Virus record (IMG/VR): IMGVR_UViG_3300021376_003102
Span: 1-24,578 of that record
Direction: 5' to 3' (one strand)
Source of the DNA: a virus
Length of the DNA: 24,578 bases
Of the stretch, positions 5,420-24,578 are shown piece by piece. Made by a program: the position numbers and the translations under genes. The notes under the pieces are model-generated. The model saw only the letters and a program-made list of their open reading frames with translations. It was not told the DNA's origin and searched no databases. Every line of letters starts with the position of its first letter. Position 1 is the stretch's first letter.

Positions 5420-6280
5420 ATGGCTAGAGTATCATTTTCACAATATAGTATGTGGAGCAGTTGCCCACAACAATACAAACTAAGTTACATTGATGGATTA
5501 TCACAATCCACATCCAATATACATTCAGTATTTGGTTCAGCAATGCACGAAACGTTGCAAGAGTATTTAAGTAGATGCCTTCGTATCTCCAAATCACAAG
5601 CAGATAAGGGAATGGATACTAAAGCATTTCTTAAAGAAAAAATGAGAGAGATTTATCTCAAAGAATCTAACGAAGGTAAAGAACCAATCTGTACTAAAGA
5701 AGAATTGGTAGAGTTTTTAGAAGATGGTAATCTTATATTGGATTACTTTCAAAAATCTAAAAACTTCAACAACTTCTTTTCTCTAAAGTATGATGAGTTA
5801 GTTGCTATTGAGCAACCAATCAATACAAAAATTAGAGAGCATATCAATTTTTTAGGATTCATAGATTTAGTAGTTAGAAGTAAGTTCGATAACAAATATC
5901 GAATCATAGATTTCAAAACATCTACATCGGGTTGGAATAAATACCAAAAGAAAGACCCAACTAAAAACGCACAAATACTTCTTTACAAAAAGTTTTATTC
6001 AGAAATGTTAGGAGTTTCTATGGATATGATAGATGTTGAGTTTATTATTCTAAAAAGAAAGGTTTCCAAAAATACTGAATATAATATTCCACGTATTAGT
6101 AGACACGTTCCAGCAAATGGTAAACAATCTATTAATAAAGCTTGGAATGAGTTTAATACATTTGTAGATAATGTTTTTAATACTGATGGTTCGTATCGAA
6201 CTGATGTAGAATTTTTTAAGAAGCCATCTAAATTATGTGGATGGTGTGAATTTTACGGAACATATTGTGATGGAAAATAA
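5420..6280 (+). CDS. PD-(D/E)XK nuclease with predicted Fe-S cluster (Cas4/RecB-like)
   Basis: Predicted DNA exonuclease of the RecB/Cas4 superfamily, 286 residues. The visible core is H43 in GSAMHETLQ, D149 in GFIDLVV, D164-F-K166 in IIDFKTS, and the QxxxY motif Q185-Y189. Cys15 near the N-terminus and Cys273, Cys276 and Cys283 near the C-terminus match the split four-cysteine layout that holds a 4Fe-4S cluster in Cas4, AddB and Dna2. No cas1, cas2 or CRISPR repeat is present, so a role in phage recombination, end processing or host DNA breakdown is more likely than CRISPR adaptation. It is transcribed from its own promoter just after the replisome genes. Start ATG 5420 is fixed by the promoter and by SFSQYSMWSSCP, the usual beginning of this family. 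Confidence 0.93.
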   Translation: MARVSFSQYSMWSSCPQQYKLSYIDGLSQSTSNIHSVFGSAMHETLQEYLSRCLRISKSQADKGMDTKAFLKEKMREIYLKESNEGKEPICTKEELVEFLEDGNLILDYFQKSKNFNNFFSLKYDELVAIEQPINTKIREHINFLGFIDLVVRSKFDNKYRIIDFKTSTSGWNKYQKKDPTKNAQILLYKKFYSEMLGVSMDMIDVEFIILKRKVSKNTEYNIPRISRHVPANGKQSINKAWNEFNTFVDNVFNTDGSYRTDVEFFKKPSKLCGWCEFYGTYCDGK

Positions 6281-7914: not shown

Positions 7915-9186
7915 ATGAGTAAACCAACATTAGTATTTCAGGCACCCGTAGCAACGAGAAGTGGATATGGAGACCACGCGAGAGATTTATTACAATCATT
8001 ATATAAATTAGATAAGTTTGATATTAAAGTAATCAGTACAAGATGGGGTGCAACTCCTATGGATGCTCTTAATTATGAAAATGAATTTCATAAATGGATT
8101 GTTAATAATATTATCCAAAAACCTGACCAAAAGCCAGATATTTATATTCAAGTGACCGTTCCGAATGAATTTCAACCATTAGGATTCTATAACATCGGAA
8201 TTACTGCAGGTATTGAAACAACCCATTGTGCATTAGATTGGATTCACGGATGTAATCGAATGGATTTAATAATCGTACCATCAGAACATTCAAAGAAAAG
8301 TTTAGTTGATACGGTTTACAATGAGCAAGATAGGCAAACTGGTAAACAAATTGGTCAACACAGAATACAAAAACCTGTTGAAGTTCTTTTTGAAGGATTT
8401 GATGAAAATGATTTTGGAACTGATGTAGTTGCTACTGTTAGTGAATTGGATGAAATTAAAGAAGATTTTGCATTTTTGTTTGTAGGACATTGGTTAAGGG
8501 GTGACTTAGGTGAAGATAGAAAGAATGTGGGAATGATGATTAAAACATTTGCTATGGCATTTAAAAATGAAAAAGTAAAGCCAGCATTAGTTTTAAAAAC
8601 ATCTACCGCAGGATTTAGTGTGATTGATAGAGAAAGACTTGTATCAAATATAAGACAAACTTTAGGTAAAGATTATGGAACTGTTTCTATTTATTTATTG
8701 CATGGCGATTTAACACCTTCACAAATGAATGGTTTATATGAACATCCAAAAGTAAAAGCAATGTTGAATTTTACAAAAGGTGAAGGATTTGGTAGACCAT
8801 TATTAGAATTCAGTTTGACAGGAAAACCAATTTTAGTAAGTAATTGGAGTGGGCATTTAGATTTTTTAAAAAGTGGAGCGGTATTGTTAGATGGTGAATT
8901 GAAGCCTGTACACGAATCAGCAGCAGATAATTTTTTGTTAAAAGAAGCAAAGTGGTTTAATGTAAATGTTTCTAAAGCACTTCCTTTGATTAAAGATATC
9001 TATAAAAACTATGACAAATATAAAATAGAAGCATTTCAATTAGGTAAACAAAATAAGCAAAACTTCAGTTTATCGAAAATGACTCAATTGTTTGATACTA
9101 TTTTAAATCAGTATGGTATTTATAATAAGAAACAACCAACGTTTCAACCAATGCAGTTACCTAAACTAAAAATGGTAAGTAAGTAA
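7915..9186 (+). CDS. GT-B glycosyltransferase (GT4-like), second copy
   Basis: A 423-residue predicted GT-B glycosyltransferase. The N-terminus (TLVFQAPVATRSGYGDHARDLL) has the GYG loop common in GT4-like enzymes. The C-terminal domain has VGHWLRGDLGEDRKN (190-204), the donor-binding EX7E E290-GFGRPLL-E298, and TGKPILVSNWSGH. It shares layout with the preceding gene but little sequence, so it is probably an ancient paralogue or separate acquisition with a different acceptor. The ATG lies one base after the upstream stop. Acceptor and sugar cannot be predicted. Confidence 0.9.
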   Translation: MSKPTLVFQAPVATRSGYGDHARDLLQSLYKLDKFDIKVISTRWGATPMDALNYENEFHKWIVNNIIQKPDQKPDIYIQVTVPNEFQPLGFYNIGITAGIETTHCALDWIHGCNRMDLIIVPSEHSKKSLVDTVYNEQDRQTGKQIGQHRIQKPVEVLFEGFDENDFGTDVVATVSELDEIKEDFAFLFVGHWLRGDLGEDRKNVGMMIKTFAMAFKNEKVKPALVLKTSTAGFSVIDRERLVSNIRQTLGKDYGTVSIYLLHGDLTPSQMNGLYEHPKVKAMLNFTKGEGFGRPLLEFSLTGKPILVSNWSGHLDFLKSGAVLLDGELKPVHESAADNFLLKEAKWFNVNVSKALPLIKDIYKNYDKYKIEAFQLGKQNKQNFSLSKMTQLFDTILNQYGIYNKKQPTFQPMQLPKLKMVSK

Positions 9187-11511: not shown

Positions 11512-12167
11512 TGGTATATGTTTACTATCACATATATGCAGTAGATGGTATAGAATCCATAGTAAGTGAACAATTAGATTTACTTAAAAGTAAATTTGAT
11601 TTTGAATATAATTTAAATATAGGAATATCAGTAGCTAATAAAAATACATCTACAAAAAAATTATTATCCTTATTAGATAAAACAAAAATAAGAGATGTTA
11701 GAGCTGAAGGGCATGAGTTTACAACATTGGAATTGATAGAATCAGATATACATAAATTCAATGATTCTGATTATATTTTTTATTTTCATACAAAAGGAGC
11801 ATCTAAACTAAAAGATTCTAACTATGAAAATATAGAAGATTGGAGAAATTTAATGATGTATTTTAATGTTGAAAAAGTAAAAGATGTATTTGCTATTTTT
11901 CAAAGAACAAAATATAATACATTTGGATGTGAATTTGATACAACATTATCGGGCATTCAATTTTACTCTGGTAATTTTTGGTGGGCAAAAGCTGATTATA
12001 TAAAAACAATAAATTTAGAAAATATAAAGAGAAATAGATTTGATGCAGAGCTAAATTTTATTCAGAAAGGTCAAAATTGGAAACCATATTCAATATTCAA
12101 CAGTAGACAAAATATTGAATTTTTTCATTATAAAGAAAGATTCCCAAAAGAAAAATATAAAATATGA
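11511..12167 (+). CDS. Putative capsule/LPS-type glycosyltransferase
   Basis: A 218-residue protein with the signature of a polysaccharide-cluster glycosyltransferase family: YIFYFHTKGASKL (88-100), an EDWR segment (109-112), and SGNFWWAKADYI (153-164) near the end. In bacterial homologues this pattern (H-[ST]-KG, then GNFWWA) is found in rhamnan and capsule loci. Catalytic residues are not well defined, so activity is inferred from the pattern. TAATG couples it to the upstream GT2 gene, and its stop overlaps the next start (ATGA). Confidence 0.72.
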   Translation: MVYVYYHIYAVDGIESIVSEQLDLLKSKFDFEYNLNIGISVANKNTSTKKLLSLLDKTKIRDVRAEGHEFTTLELIESDIHKFNDSDYIFYFHTKGASKLKDSNYENIEDWRNLMMYFNVEKVKDVFAIFQRTKYNTFGCEFDTTLSGIQFYSGNFWWAKADYIKTINLENIKRNRFDAELNFIQKGQNWKPYSIFNSRQNIEFFHYKERFPKEKYKI

Positions 12168-13552
12168 CAAAATTAATTATTTTTGATTTAGATGGTGTAT
12201 TAGTTGAAGCAAAAGATATACACTTTAAAACATTAAACCAAGCTCTTTGGGAAATTGACAAGAGTGATAAATATGTTATATCAGAAGCAGAACATCTTTC
12301 GATATACGATGGACTAAAAACCAATCAAAAATTAGAACTACTTACACAAAATAAAGGATTACACCCAAACACATATGAAACAGTTTGGAATAGAAAACAA
12401 TATCTTACAATTGAAGCAATAACTGATTTACAACCCGATTTAGATAAAATCGAATTGTTTAAAGAACTTCGTAATAGAGGATATAAGTTAGCATGTTGCT
12501 CAAACTCAATTAGAAGGTCTGTATTGGTGATGTTGGCAAAGATAGGTATAATTGAGTATATGGATTTAATCCTTTCTAATGAGGATGTAAAGAACTCTAA
12601 ACCGCATCCTGAAATGTATTGGAAGGCTATGAGTATGATGGGATGCTTACCAGAAGAAACCCTAATTGTAGAAGATTCTCCGCATGGGTTATTGGCGGCA
12701 AGTAGAAGTAGAGCTAATGTATTAAGAGTTGATAATCCTAAAGATTTGGTATTATCAAAAATTATTAGTAGATTAGATGAAACAAAAAATAAAATTATGA
12801 GTACACCAAAATGGCAAGGTGGTAAGATGAATATTCTTATCCCAATGGCAGGAGCTGGTAGTAGATTCGCAGCAGCAGGCTACACATTCCCAAAACCACT
12901 AATCGATGTGGAAGGTAAACCAATGATTCAGGTGGTTGTTGATAACCTAAATATAGATGCTAACTTTATTTATGTTGTACAAAAAGAGCATAGAGCCAAG
13001 TTTAATTTGGATACCCTATTGAACCTAATCACTCCTAATTGTAAAATAGTAGAAGTCGATGGGATGACGGAGGGGGCAGCTTGTACAACTCTATTAGCAA
13101 AAGAATTCATTAACAATGATGAACCATTGTTGATGGCAAACTCCGACCAGTTCGTAGAATGGGATTCAAATGAGTTTATGTATAAAATGATTGAACAAAA
13201 AGTTGATGGAGGTATTCTAACATTTACAGCAACACATCCAAAATGGTCATTCGCTAAAGTAGATGAATATGGATATGTTACGGAGGTGGCTGAGAAGAAT
13301 CCAATATCAGATATTGCAACGGTTGGTGTTTACTATTGGGCTAAAGGTTCTGATTATGTAAAGTACGCTGAACAAATGATTAGTAAAAACATCAGAACAA
13401 ATAATGAGTTTTATACTTGCCCTACTTTCAATGAAGCAATCGGTGATGGTAAAAAAATCAAAACATTCAACATTGAAAAAATGTGGGGATTGGGAACACC
13501 TGAAGATTTAAAATATTACTTAGAAAATTATAAAAAAATAATACAGTTATGA
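12164..13552 (+). CDS. Fusion: HAD phosphatase + sugar nucleotidyltransferase
   Basis: A 462-residue two-domain enzyme. Residues 1-205 are a HAD phosphatase: D8 and D10 in FDLDGVLVE, S113 in CCSNS, K146 in NSKPHP, and E170-D171 in VEDSPHG. Residues 222-462 are a nucleotidyltransferase of the sugar-1-phosphate type: MAGAGSRF (228-235), FPKPL with K244, and the metal-binding D328 in ANSDQ. The linker (206-221) contains a Met at 212 that could act as an internal start, which would make the second domain separately as well. Together the domains could dephosphorylate a sugar bisphosphate and activate the sugar with an NTP, as in heptose or similar pathways. Which sugar and nucleotide are used cannot be told. 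Confidence 0.92.
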   Translation: MTKLIIFDLDGVLVEAKDIHFKTLNQALWEIDKSDKYVISEAEHLSIYDGLKTNQKLELLTQNKGLHPNTYETVWNRKQYLTIEAITDLQPDLDKIELFKELRNRGYKLACCSNSIRRSVLVMLAKIGIIEYMDLILSNEDVKNSKPHPEMYWKAMSMMGCLPEETLIVEDSPHGLLAASRSRANVLRVDNPKDLVLSKIISRLDETKNKIMSTPKWQGGKMNILIPMAGAGSRFAAAGYTFPKPLIDVEGKPMIQVVVDNLNIDANFIYVVQKEHRAKFNLDTLLNLITPNCKIVEVDGMTEGAACTTLLAKEFINNDEPLLMANSDQFVEWDSNEFMYKMIEQKVDGGILTFTATHPKWSFAKVDEYGYVTEVAEKNPISDIATVGVYYWAKGSDYVKYAEQMISKNIRTNNEFYTCPTFNEAIGDGKKIKTFNIEKMWGLGTPEDLKYYLENYKKIIQL

Positions 13553-20916: not shown

Positions 20917-21363
20917 ATGGTATATCTTTTCACAGGGCAGCCTGGTAGCGGTAAAACTACATTAGGAAAAAAGTTACAATTTTGGTTACAAACCGATAAA
21001 AAGAATTGGCGTAAATCCGTATTTCACATTGATGGTGACCAATTAAGAGAACTATTCCCAAACAAAGATTATTCAAAAGAAGGTAGATATAAGAATATCG
21101 GTAAAGCGTTTGATATTGCAAAATATTTAGATAATTGTGGTAACGATGTTGTTATCAGTTTAGTATCACCATACAAAGAATTACGAGAGCAACTTAAATC
21201 AGAATGTAAAGTTACTGAAATTTATTGCCATACTAAGAAAATGAGAGGTAGAGAAGATAAGTTCGCATTAGATTATGAACCTCCTACCGAATTTTATGTA
21301 GATTTGGATACATCAGATAGTTCTGATGAAACTTTTAAAAAATTAATAAAAGTTTTAGCTTAA
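20917..21363 (+). CDS. APS-kinase-like P-loop kinase (CysC-like)
   Basis: A 148-residue predicted kinase. Walker A is GQPGSGKTT (7-15). HIDGDQLRELF (37-47) matches the DGD substrate motif of adenylylsulfate kinase, YSKEGRYKNIG (52-62) contains the Arg and Asn that bind APS, and VISLVSPYKELR (79-90) completes the family pattern. It could make PAPS for sulfation or phosphorylate another small molecule; no sulfotransferase is visible in the window. It is shorter than CysC (about 200 residues), lacking part of the lid and C-terminus. It couples by TAATG to the amidinotransferase. Confidence 0.87.
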   Translation: MVYLFTGQPGSGKTTLGKKLQFWLQTDKKNWRKSVFHIDGDQLRELFPNKDYSKEGRYKNIGKAFDIAKYLDNCGNDVVISLVSPYKELREQLKSECKVTEIYCHTKKMRGREDKFALDYEPPTEFYVDLDTSDSSDETFKKLIKVLA

Positions 21364-22394
21364 TGTACACAATAAAGCCAAATGTATTTTCTGAATGGGG
21401 TGAACTAAATGAAATAATAATTGGTACTGCAAACAATGCTAGAGTGCCATCTATTGGCGATAAATGCTTACATTGTATAGATTATGCACATCTTTCAGCT
21501 GATGAATTTAATAATAGACCACACGGATTATACCCACAACAATTAATAGATGAAACAAATGAAGATTTGGATGAAATAGCATCTAAATTGAAATCGATGG
21601 GAATCAAAGTACATAGACCTTTAGATAGAGATTTTTCCGAATTAAAAGGTAATGATTTTTGGAATGTTGATGGATATTACAATTATTGTCCTAGAGATTC
21701 TATGTTGGTTGTACAAGATAAGGTCTTAGCAACACCGATGACATTGAGGCATAGACAATTTGAAGCTGAAACTTGTAAACCTCTATTTGACCAAAATCAT
21801 TGGTTTGAAGCACCTAAACCAAAACTTTTAGATTCCATTTATCAAAGAAAAGATTTAAGTAAACCAACCCTTTTAGATGGTGAACCAGTTTTTGATGCAG
21901 CAAATATAATTAAAGCGGGGTATGATATTCTTTATTTGGTATCCAATACGGGAAATAAAGATGGAGCAAGATGGTTAGAAAATTGGTTAAAAGAAAACAT
22001 AGATAAAAAATATAAAGTCCACACAGCGGAAAATATTTATGCATACATACATATAGATACAACATTTGTTTTTCTTAGAGAAGGTTTAGTACTACTAAAT
22101 CCATCAAGAGTAAACGATAATAACTTACCCAAATTTTTAAAAAATTGGGATAAGATATGGGCGCCCAATCCATTCCCTACACAAGTTATGGAAGATTGGT
22201 GTCCTGCTTCACCTTGGTTGGGAATGAATATTCTTTCTATTAATAAAAATTTAGTTATGGTAGAAGAACATCAAACTGAGCTGATGCTAGAATTGAATAA
22301 GTGGGGTATAGATTCTATGCCTGTAAAAATGAGGCATGCTAGAACTTTTAGTGGAGGACCACATTGTATTAGTTTAGATGTAAATAGAACATAG
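21363..22394 (+). CDS. Glycine amidinotransferase-like enzyme
   Basis: A 343-residue enzyme of the amidinotransferase/arginine deiminase fold. The catalytic set is visible: D178 in EPVFDAANI, H230 in YIHIDTTF and the nucleophile C335 in SGGPHCISLDV. CPRDSMLVV (109-117) is also conserved in the family. Relatives move an amidino group from arginine to an amine, as in creatine precursor and streptomycin synthesis (StrB1). Here the acceptor may be an amino sugar; an aminotransferase-domain gene lies two genes downstream. The N-terminus lacks any targeting sequence. Substrate cannot be deduced. Confidence 0.9.
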   Translation: MYTIKPNVFSEWGELNEIIIGTANNARVPSIGDKCLHCIDYAHLSADEFNNRPHGLYPQQLIDETNEDLDEIASKLKSMGIKVHRPLDRDFSELKGNDFWNVDGYYNYCPRDSMLVVQDKVLATPMTLRHRQFEAETCKPLFDQNHWFEAPKPKLLDSIYQRKDLSKPTLLDGEPVFDAANIIKAGYDILYLVSNTGNKDGARWLENWLKENIDKKYKVHTAENIYAYIHIDTTFVFLREGLVLLNPSRVNDNNLPKFLKNWDKIWAPNPFPTQVMEDWCPASPWLGMNILSINKNLVMVEEHQTELMLELNKWGIDSMPVKMRHARTFSGGPHCISLDVNRT

Positions 22395-22395
22395 T

Positions 22396-23088
22396 ATGAT
22401 ATTAAATAAGTGTTATAAATATTCCGACTCACCCATTCCAAATTGGGAATTTCCACAACTATTAGATGATACAACGGCATCAAATTTAAAATGTGAATTG
22501 GAAGAACTTTTCGAATTGAGAAGAAACGAGTTTAAAGTTTTTGATAGAAATGGCTCAATGATGTATGAATGGTGTAAGCATAATAAAATAGATACTCCAA
22601 TTGCATTTCAACTTATTTCGGAATTTCATTCATCAGATTTTGTAAAGTTTTTAGAGCAATTAACAGGAATAAATGGATTGATACCAGATATTCATTTGCA
22701 TGGAGCAGGATATATGCGTTGTGGTAGAGAAGATAGTTTAAAAATACATACCGATTTTAATTGGAATGATACCATAAAGTTAAACAGAGAATTAACAGTT
22801 ATGATATATCTAAACAAAAATTGGAAAGAAGAATGGAACGGAGATATACAACTTTGGGATAAAAAAAATACACATTGTGTTAAAAGATATTTTCCAAAGT
22901 GGGGAAACTGCGTTATATGGAAACATGATGAATTAGGATTTCACGGACATCCGAATCCAATAAATGCACCAGAAGGTGAATTTAGAGATGGATTTAGATT
23001 TTTTTATTATACATCAAATGCAACAAACGATAATCCTCATAGGAGTTTGTATTGGTTTGATGGAGAGAACCCAATAGATAAAAAATAA
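22396..23088 (+). CDS. 2-oxoglutarate/Fe(II)-dependent oxygenase
   Basis: A 230-residue predicted hydroxylase. The metal site is H118 and D120 in KIHTDFNW and H183 in GFHGHPNP, with R197 in EFRDGFRFFYYTS as the 2-oxoglutarate contact. MIYLNKNWKEEWNGDIQLW is the typical strand pair of the prolyl-4-hydroxylase-like group. The enzyme could hydroxylate a sugar, amino acid or nucleobase. It follows the amidinotransferase by 1 base and shares TAATG with the next gene, so the three probably act in one pathway. Confidence 0.92.
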   Translation: MILNKCYKYSDSPIPNWEFPQLLDDTTASNLKCELEELFELRRNEFKVFDRNGSMMYEWCKHNKIDTPIAFQLISEFHSSDFVKFLEQLTGINGLIPDIHLHGAGYMRCGREDSLKIHTDFNWNDTIKLNRELTVMIYLNKNWKEEWNGDIQLWDKKNTHCVKRYFPKWGNCVIWKHDELGFHGHPNPINAPEGEFRDGFRFFYYTSNATNDNPHRSLYWFDGENPIDKK

Positions 23089-24578
23089 TGGATATAGAAA
23101 AAATGTACCCAATTGTTAATGATTGGGGCTGGGTTACTCATTTTGAATGTACGATATCAAAATATTGTGGGTCTAACTTAGCGTTGGCAGTTGATTCAAA
23201 TACCAATGCTATAAAGCTATTATTGGAATATTTAAATGTTAAAAATAAAACAATTTTTATTCCAAATAACACCTATGTTTCAGTACCATCACAAATAATA
23301 CATAGTGGTAATACGCCCTATTTTATAGATTACGAATGGGAGGGAGAATATCAATTATTCCCATATCCAATTTGGGATTCGGCAACTAGGTTTAAAAAAA
23401 ATATGCATACTAAAATGACGTATCAAATTCTTTCATTCCACCATAAAAAAATATTAAATATAGGTACAGGTGGTATGATTTTGACTGAAGATAGAGATTT
23501 CATAAATTGGGCAAGACCCAGAATATACGATGGTAGAGATTTTACTAAAATGTATGTTGATGATGATTTTCAATGTATAGGATATCATATGTATATGACT
23601 CCTGAACAAGCGAAACGTGGGTTAGAAATATTTCATTCAGATAGAATAAACGATTATAATGATGATTGTGGTTCGAATAAAACTTATAAAGATTTATCTA
23701 AACAAAAAATTTTTGAACCATATGTTAATGTTCCTAAAAAATATAAGGGCATTTCTGTTTTATTTGATAGGCCAGAGTTAAATGTTGAAAGGTATGCAAC
23801 TGAATTTAAATTCATTGAAAGAAAAAATATAAATGAAATAAGTTCTGATAATTTAAAAAATTGGGTAAATATAATAGTAAATCATAACGACCATATTATA
23901 CTTAACGATTTTAATATGGATGAGGTTTTAAATTTATCAGAAAAATCATTAAAACTTTTAAAAACAAATCCAAATACATTTTTTGTTTTATCAGATTTAA
24001 GAGAAGGAAACTACAAAGTATCCGATGAATTTTGGAATAAAATAATAGAATTTAGAAAAAAGCATAATATTCCATATAATAAGGTTGTGGTTATTAATAA
24101 CAATATTAAACTAAAGCATGATGATGTAAAAACAATTTCATTTCCACAATATGTTTTAGCACATAAAACGAACCCATCAATAGAAGAAATAAAATTAAAC
24201 ATATATAAAGATAAAAACGTATCTATTGTATTTAAATCAGATTTAGATAAAACTAAAATAAGACCCAAAAGATTTTTAAGTTATAATAGATGTGGATGGA
24301 GATGGCATAGAGCTTTTATGCTATCTAAATTATACAAAAAGAATATATTAGACAACACCATATTTTCTTTTTATGAAAGTCAATATTTTGATAATAAAGA
24401 AAAATTTGGCAACACAATTTACATGCCATCTTCATTTGAAACACTAAATATAGAAACGGAAGATAAATGGGATATTCTTAAATTCTTAGTAGATAAATGT
24501 CCTACTAGATTAGACCACGAAACATCCGAATCAGTAGCAGGAGGACACAATTATTTCTCGAAAAAAGAGCATTATTTA
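23088..24578 (+). CDS. Fusion: DegT-type aminotransferase domain + GT-like domain, 3' partial
   Basis: An open frame of 497 codons runs from ATG 23088 to the end of the window without a stop. Residues 1-195 match the large domain of DegT/DnrJ/EryC1 sugar aminotransferases: FIPNNTYVSVPSQI (57-70), the PLP-binding WDSATRF with D97, and SFHHKKILNIGTGGMILTED with catalytic-lysine candidate K121. MTPEQAKRG (170-178) fits the start of the dimer region. The family is usually about 370 residues, and the C-terminal small domain appears reduced to KTYKDLSKQKIFEPY. From about residue 245 a different domain follows, with RPKRFLSYNRCGWRWHRAFML (392-412), a pattern of fucosyltransferase or exostosin-like glycosyltransferases. 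Amine donation and transfer could be combined in one protein. The end and final size are unknown. Confidence 0.85.
   Translation, partial: MDIEKMYPIVNDWGWVTHFECTISKYCGSNLALAVDSNTNAIKLLLEYLNVKNKTIFIPNNTYVSVPSQIIHSGNTPYFIDYEWEGEYQLFPYPIWDSATRFKKNMHTKMTYQILSFHHKKILNIGTGGMILTEDRDFINWARPRIYDGRDFTKMYVDDDFQCIGYHMYMTPEQAKRGLEIFHSDRINDYNDDCGSNKTYKDLSKQKIFEPYVNVPKKYKGISVLFDRPELNVERYATEFKFIERKNINEISSDNLKNWVNIIVNHNDHIILNDFNMDEVLNLSEKSLKLLKTNPNTFFVLSDLREGNYKVSDEFWNKIIEFRKKHNIPYNKVVVINNNIKLKHDDVKTISFPQYVLAHKTNPSIEEIKLNIYKDKNVSIVFKSDLDKTKIRPKRFLSYNRCGWRWHRAFMLSKLYKKNILDNTIFSFYESQYFDNKEKFGNTIYMPSSFETLNIETEDKWDILKFLVDKCPTRLDHETSESVAGGHNYFSKKEHYL

Follow-up and report, generated by a model that had tools for sequence, protein, structure and literature searches.

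The window analysed here, i.e. the whole stretch of 24,578 nt (24.6 kb) of a virus record that is a fragment, ends with three closely packed genes predicted to encode an amidinotransferase (AMT) of the StrB1 type, a 2-oxoglutarate/Fe(II) oxygenase and a compact DegT-type aminotransferase. The reading that we favour, with a probability of roughly 0.6, is that these genes form an exchangeable cassette for glycan tailoring whose product is a guanidino sugar, and that the kinase encoded immediately upstream takes no part in it. The predicted enzyme families, the catalytic residues, the exact insertion of the cassette and its recurrence are apparent from sequence comparison; the substrate and the product are those we infer.

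The window comes from a T4-like aquatic phage. Its polymerase is closest to that of Microcystis phage Mel-JY01 (49.5%), in which the glycosyltransferase genes likewise come after the replication genes; no close DNA match to the window was found among named phages. The window is rich in glycosyltransferase-like and sugar-nucleotide genes, and the part of interest is organized as follows:

20917..21363, + strand: APS-kinase-like P-loop kinase (PF01583, E=2.6e-15); backbone gene flanking the cassette, outside it
21363..22394, + strand: predicted StrB1-type amidinotransferase (AMT), cassette gene 1 (1bwd, E=7.6e-83; catalytic residues; tree)
22396..23088, + strand: predicted 2-oxoglutarate/Fe(II) oxygenase, cassette gene 2 (PF13640, 54.6 bits, cutoff 27)
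23088..24578, running past the window end, + strand: predicted compact DegT/DnrJ/EryC1 aminotransferase (about residues 1-210) plus a C-terminal domain (PF01041, E=4.9e-16)

The kinase stop and the AMT start overlap by one base (TAATG), a single base separates the AMT from the oxygenase, and the oxygenase overlaps the fourth gene (start 23088) again by one base. An earlier, sequence-only reading of this DNA had joined kinase, amidinotransferase and oxygenase into one coupled set, and the frames, coordinates, overlaps and near-contacts that it gave for these three genes were exact. The amination step at which it had guessed is present as the fourth gene, of DegT type, which was absent from its list.

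Predicted enzymes of the cassette

The AMT gave no Pfam match at 0.001. It matched StrB1 (inosamine-phosphate amidinotransferase, PDB 1bwd) over its whole length (residues 7-343; 7.6e-83), against a value of about 1e-36 for AGAT. Residues D112, D178, H230, D232 and C335 align with D108, D179, H227, D229 and C332 of StrB1, and the catalytic positions are invariant in 35 aligned rows, save for one E at D179. With this complete catalytic residue set, the AMT is predicted to be of the StrB1 type. In a quick tree with SH-aLRT values as its only branch support, run against StrB1 and AGAT as the sequence-only reading had proposed, a branch with a value of 98 puts the AMT on the side of StrB1, in a clade with a Streptomyces homologue, the Pelagibacteraceae AMT and most phage AMTs, whereas AGAT and the Thiomargarita, cyanobacterial and Paceibacterota enzymes fall outside; the tree does not include two PDB amidinotransferases that belong to toxin or virulence pathways and were judged dispensable. 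The tree lowers a reading in terms of AGAT and creatine. Of the earlier description, a glycine-amidinotransferase-like enzyme with a complete Asp-His-Cys set, the residues stand, but the family is that of StrB1, apart from AGAT. In its own pathway, StrB1 works with a DegT-type aminotransferase.

Amidino transfer had been called rare in phages. This holds for named phages, in which an AMT was found in 15 of 50,697 records, but such genes are common in environmental virus contigs, where at least 495 stretches match the AMT profile. One close relative of the cassette (L008) carries a shortened AMT at 8001-8853, whose 853 bases match residues 1-342 with an open frame of 254 aa, possibly owing to an internal deletion or an assembly error.

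The oxygenase matches 2OG-FeII_Oxy_3 (PF13640) with E=2.2e-14 and a score of twice the gathering score, and its Fe ligands H118, D120 and H183, as well as R197, are invariant in an alignment with five relatives. Both the Pfam score and the H-x-D...H pattern with its Arg place it in the 2OG-Fe(II) oxygenase superfamily, as the sequence-only reading had it. The 166-aa oxC1 family found beside many AMTs matches PDB entries only weakly (0.011); its designation as 2OG-type comes from an H-x-D...H pattern.

Residues 1 to about 200 of the fourth gene match PF01041 with 59.3 bits, against a gathering score of 19.8, and the PLP lysine K121 and D97 are invariant in eight relatives; by Pfam score and PLP lysine/aspartate, the protein falls in the DegT/DnrJ/EryC1/StrS family. 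Its length does not conform, the usual DegT enzymes having about 360-400 residues and stand-alone compact copies about 190-215, and because it is about half the usual size it is designated here as compact DegT-type, a putative variant and not a standard member. The copy in the sister contig L005 (605 aa) has perosamine synthase as its best PDB sequence match. Its AlphaFold2 model, which is good in the DegT part and weak elsewhere, compares with sugar transaminases at Z ~18 and an rmsd of 3.1-3.5 over 203-214 residues, pointing to a sugar-aminotransferase fold. The PLP lysine/aspartate and a Z of ~18 over 203-211 residues are thus shared with GDP-perosamine synthase and other DegT sugar aminotransferases (3dr7, 3bn1, 7b0d), from which the compact form differs in being about half as large and, in the window and L005, fused to another domain. 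Since much of the usual fold is missing, catalysis is not assured. A glycosyltransferase was considered for the C-terminal domain and rejected, as comparisons with Pfam, PDB profiles and named phages gave no match in its favour and this part of the model is poorly predicted.

Relatives of the compact DegT were found in at least 577 viral stretches. Copies of about 190-240 aa (L095-L174) are widespread in viral contigs, often with neighbouring genes of the GNAT, GDP-mannose dehydratase-like or radical SAM type, and in the cultured Flavobacterium phage immuto a PglD/hexapeptide acetyltransferase comes after the compact DegT.

The kinase and the slot behind it

The kinase matches APS_kinase (PF01583) and contains a P-loop and DGD..R and SPY motifs; its nearest PDB relatives are APS kinases. 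It is nevertheless named only APS-kinase-like, because its score against the curated APS kinase model TIGR00455 (51.5 bits) lies below the cutoff of 138.7 despite these motifs. The same name in the sequence-only reading is therefore borne out by Pfam and the motifs, but not by the curated model.

Searching IMG/VR with an alignment of the kinase retrieved 431 relatives. Among the best 80 of these viral loci, 5 contain an AMT and 75 do not; most AMT loci, for their part, are without such a kinase. Where the kinases are about 77-90% identical, the gene order is constant: a pair of small genes, a HAD-type gene, the kinase, a conserved gene (about 195 residues) and, in many cases, a GHMP kinase. 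In most relatives, this conserved gene lies about 33 bases past the kinase; otherwise, one unrelated gene intervenes. The order in L005, whose AMT is 91% identical to that of the window, is kinase, AMT, oxygenase, DegT fusion and conserved gene, and the sequence past the stop of the DegT fusion is the same as that past the kinase stop in the empty-site relatives. This identity of the two junctions argues that the cassette is a three-gene insertion into the slot behind the kinase, exactly between the kinase and the next backbone gene.

The other occupants of the slot likewise overlap the kinase by one or a few bases, and the kinase may still share a transcript with the cassette. As a member of the pathway, however, it is ruled out by the 80 viral loci and the empty-site comparison. 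The coupled set including the kinase is not borne out, and neither is a phosphorylation step by the kinase, the gene being present in dozens of relatives without an AMT.

In more distant relatives (L222-L254), a CTP_transf_like (NMNAT-like) gene of 117-135 aa comes directly after the APS-kinase-like gene, so that the real partner of the kinase may be a nucleotidyltransferase, e.g. in cofactor salvage. In another locus (L007), a 202-aa gene at 5649-6257 lies between kinase and AMT; it begins with a P-loop-like stretch that by eye resembles sulfotransferases, and gave no Pfam hit.

Recurrence and gene neighbourhood

In aquatic phage contigs, the combination of AMT, PLP aminotransferase and 2-oxoglutarate oxygenase is met with repeatedly. 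Of 30 non-redundant AMT loci, which were drawn from the best 80 of at least 495 and are not a random sample, 18 have a PLP-type aminotransferase as well as a 2OG-type gene within 5 kb; in a control set of 41 non-redundant kinase loci, a PLP-type gene was found in one and an AMT in three. Two orders are typical, namely oxygenase, 2OG-type, PLP, AMT, radical SAM, and oxygenase, compact DegT, AMT. By sequence, the second PLP family matches aminotransferases only weakly, but its model (pLDDT 84.5) matches those of the HisC type. Two PLP families with no clear mutual sequence similarity thus occupy the same place beside the AMT, and this is the strongest indication that the amine made by the adjoining aminotransferase is what the AMT acts on.

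None of 61 non-redundant compact-DegT loci has both an AMT and a GNAT acetyltransferase (0/20 versus 13/41; Fisher p=0.0056, shared descent not corrected), as would be expected if both cap the same amine. Some compact-DegT loci carry GDP-mannose 4,6-dehydratase-like genes. When oxygenase and dehydratase were compared over the same 61 loci (2/14 versus 21/47, p=0.06), the result was only suggestive as regards the absence of the oxygenase from dehydratase loci and its role as ketone maker.

The three genes do not form an obligate unit, because AMTs 65-74% identical to that of the window occupy the same slot without a compact DegT (L006, L007, L241 and L246); in two of these, L006 and L007, a different PF13640 oxygenase adjoins the AMT. 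A separate group of phage AMTs (L013-L030) is flanked by MoxR-ATPase/VWA-like genes on one side and a calcineurin-like phosphoesterase on the other; no sugar aminotransferase lies close by.

The cassette was not found in the literature searched (open-licence papers only). The glycan locus of Synechococcus phage S-SCSM2R likewise brings together a compact DegT, a 2OG-type gene, an AMT and glycosyltransferases, but its AMT is 39.7% identical, a radical SAM gene is present and the 2OG-type gene belongs to oxC1. In the Pelagibacteraceae genome AG-439-M09, a CDP-sugar operon comprises, in a single gene run, a CDP-glucose 4,6-dehydratase (over its curated cutoff), a full-length DegT, a glucose-1-phosphate cytidylyltransferase-like gene (slightly below its cutoff), an epimerase-like gene and an AMT. 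Here too the AMT stands beside a DegT, in this case with a 4,6-dehydratase; the locus differs in being cellular, in its full-length DegT and 33% identical AMT, and in that no 2OG oxygenase was recognised in it. Exchangeable modules with five radical SAM genes and an AMT have been described in Campylobacter phages CP220 and CPt10 (PMC2853527). These resemble the cassette as phage-borne, exchangeable modules with an AMT and sugar-transferase-like genes, and differ from it in their many radical SAM genes, with no DegT or 2OG oxygenase reported, and in AMTs only 28% and 25% identical.

Proposed pathway and alternatives

In the proposed pathway, the DegT aminotransferase would act on a keto sugar (probably a 4-keto-6-deoxy sugar linked to a nucleotide) to give an amino sugar, to whose amine the AMT would transfer the amidino group of arginine, giving ornithine and the guanidino sugar. 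The oxygenase would act before or after these steps, and our guess is that it either provides the ketone or adds a hydroxyl to the sugar. The guanidino sugar would finally be attached to a glycan that the phage makes, either on the virion or on the surface of the host. The sequence-only reading had placed the product on a glycan or on DNA; the former is the most likely, and no sign of DNA modification was seen. A literature search for guanidino sugars in O-antigens returned nothing useful.

That the AMT is instead an auxiliary metabolic gene making guanidinoacetate (for creatine) or homoarginine as a free guanidino metabolite appears unlikely. Virome work does file such genes as K00613, glycine amidinotransferase (PMC8226683), viral creatine synthesis genes are discussed in a Tara survey (PMC11360552), and some relatives have an AMT without an aminotransferase; however, the tree places the AMT with StrB1 rather than AGAT, sugar enzymes surround it, and no guanidinoacetate methyltransferase was recognised in the scanned genes. 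It is distinctly improbable, too, that the cassette modifies DNA bases or a peptide or protein. The cassette encodes an aminotransferase of the sugar type amid numerous glycosyltransferase-like genes, and no base-hypermodification gene was recognised in the window, even if the weak PDB matches of the oxygenase are to prolyl hydroxylases and the AMT of CP220 adjoins several radical SAM genes (PMC2853527).

A streptidine-like aminocyclitol pathway, with the kinase phosphorylating an aminocyclitol ahead of amidination, is already largely refuted by context, and we give it very little credence. StrB1 is the closest solved relative of the AMT, sharing with it the catalytic residues and the clade, and kinase and AMT have one base in common. 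The phage setting is different, though; the kinase occurs in many loci without an AMT, flanks an empty slot and is missing from most AMT loci, and its closest structures are APS kinases. No linked cyclitol kinase, phosphatase or inositol dehydrogenase was recognised among the scanned genes of this 24.6 kb fragment. The aminoglycoside resemblance pointed out earlier survives for single enzymes (StrB1, DegT), but not as a pathway.

If the guanidino-sugar reading is correct, a small enzyme set, including an aminotransferase of about half the usual size and an amidinotransferase of antibiotic type, gives a glycan a strong positive charge, with possible effects on adsorption or on the exclusion of other phages; it would also explain a gene filed under glycine/creatine metabolism in virome surveys. 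A wider proposal, possible yet decidedly tentative, is that aquatic phages share a modular set of swappable compact enzymes (oxygenase, miniature aminotransferase, StrB-type amidinotransferase) with which glycans of phage or host are decorated with guanidino sugars carrying a positive charge; the oxygenase would then make the ketone in place of the usual dehydratase or dehydrogenase.

Among the surrounding sugar genes, a heptose-kinase-like GHMP gene (L005, 12105-13151; HddA model 344 bits, cutoff 600) is located downstream in relatives, and the window encodes a HAD/nucleotidyltransferase fusion at 12164-13552; together, these perhaps belong to a phage-encoded GDP-heptose-like pathway.
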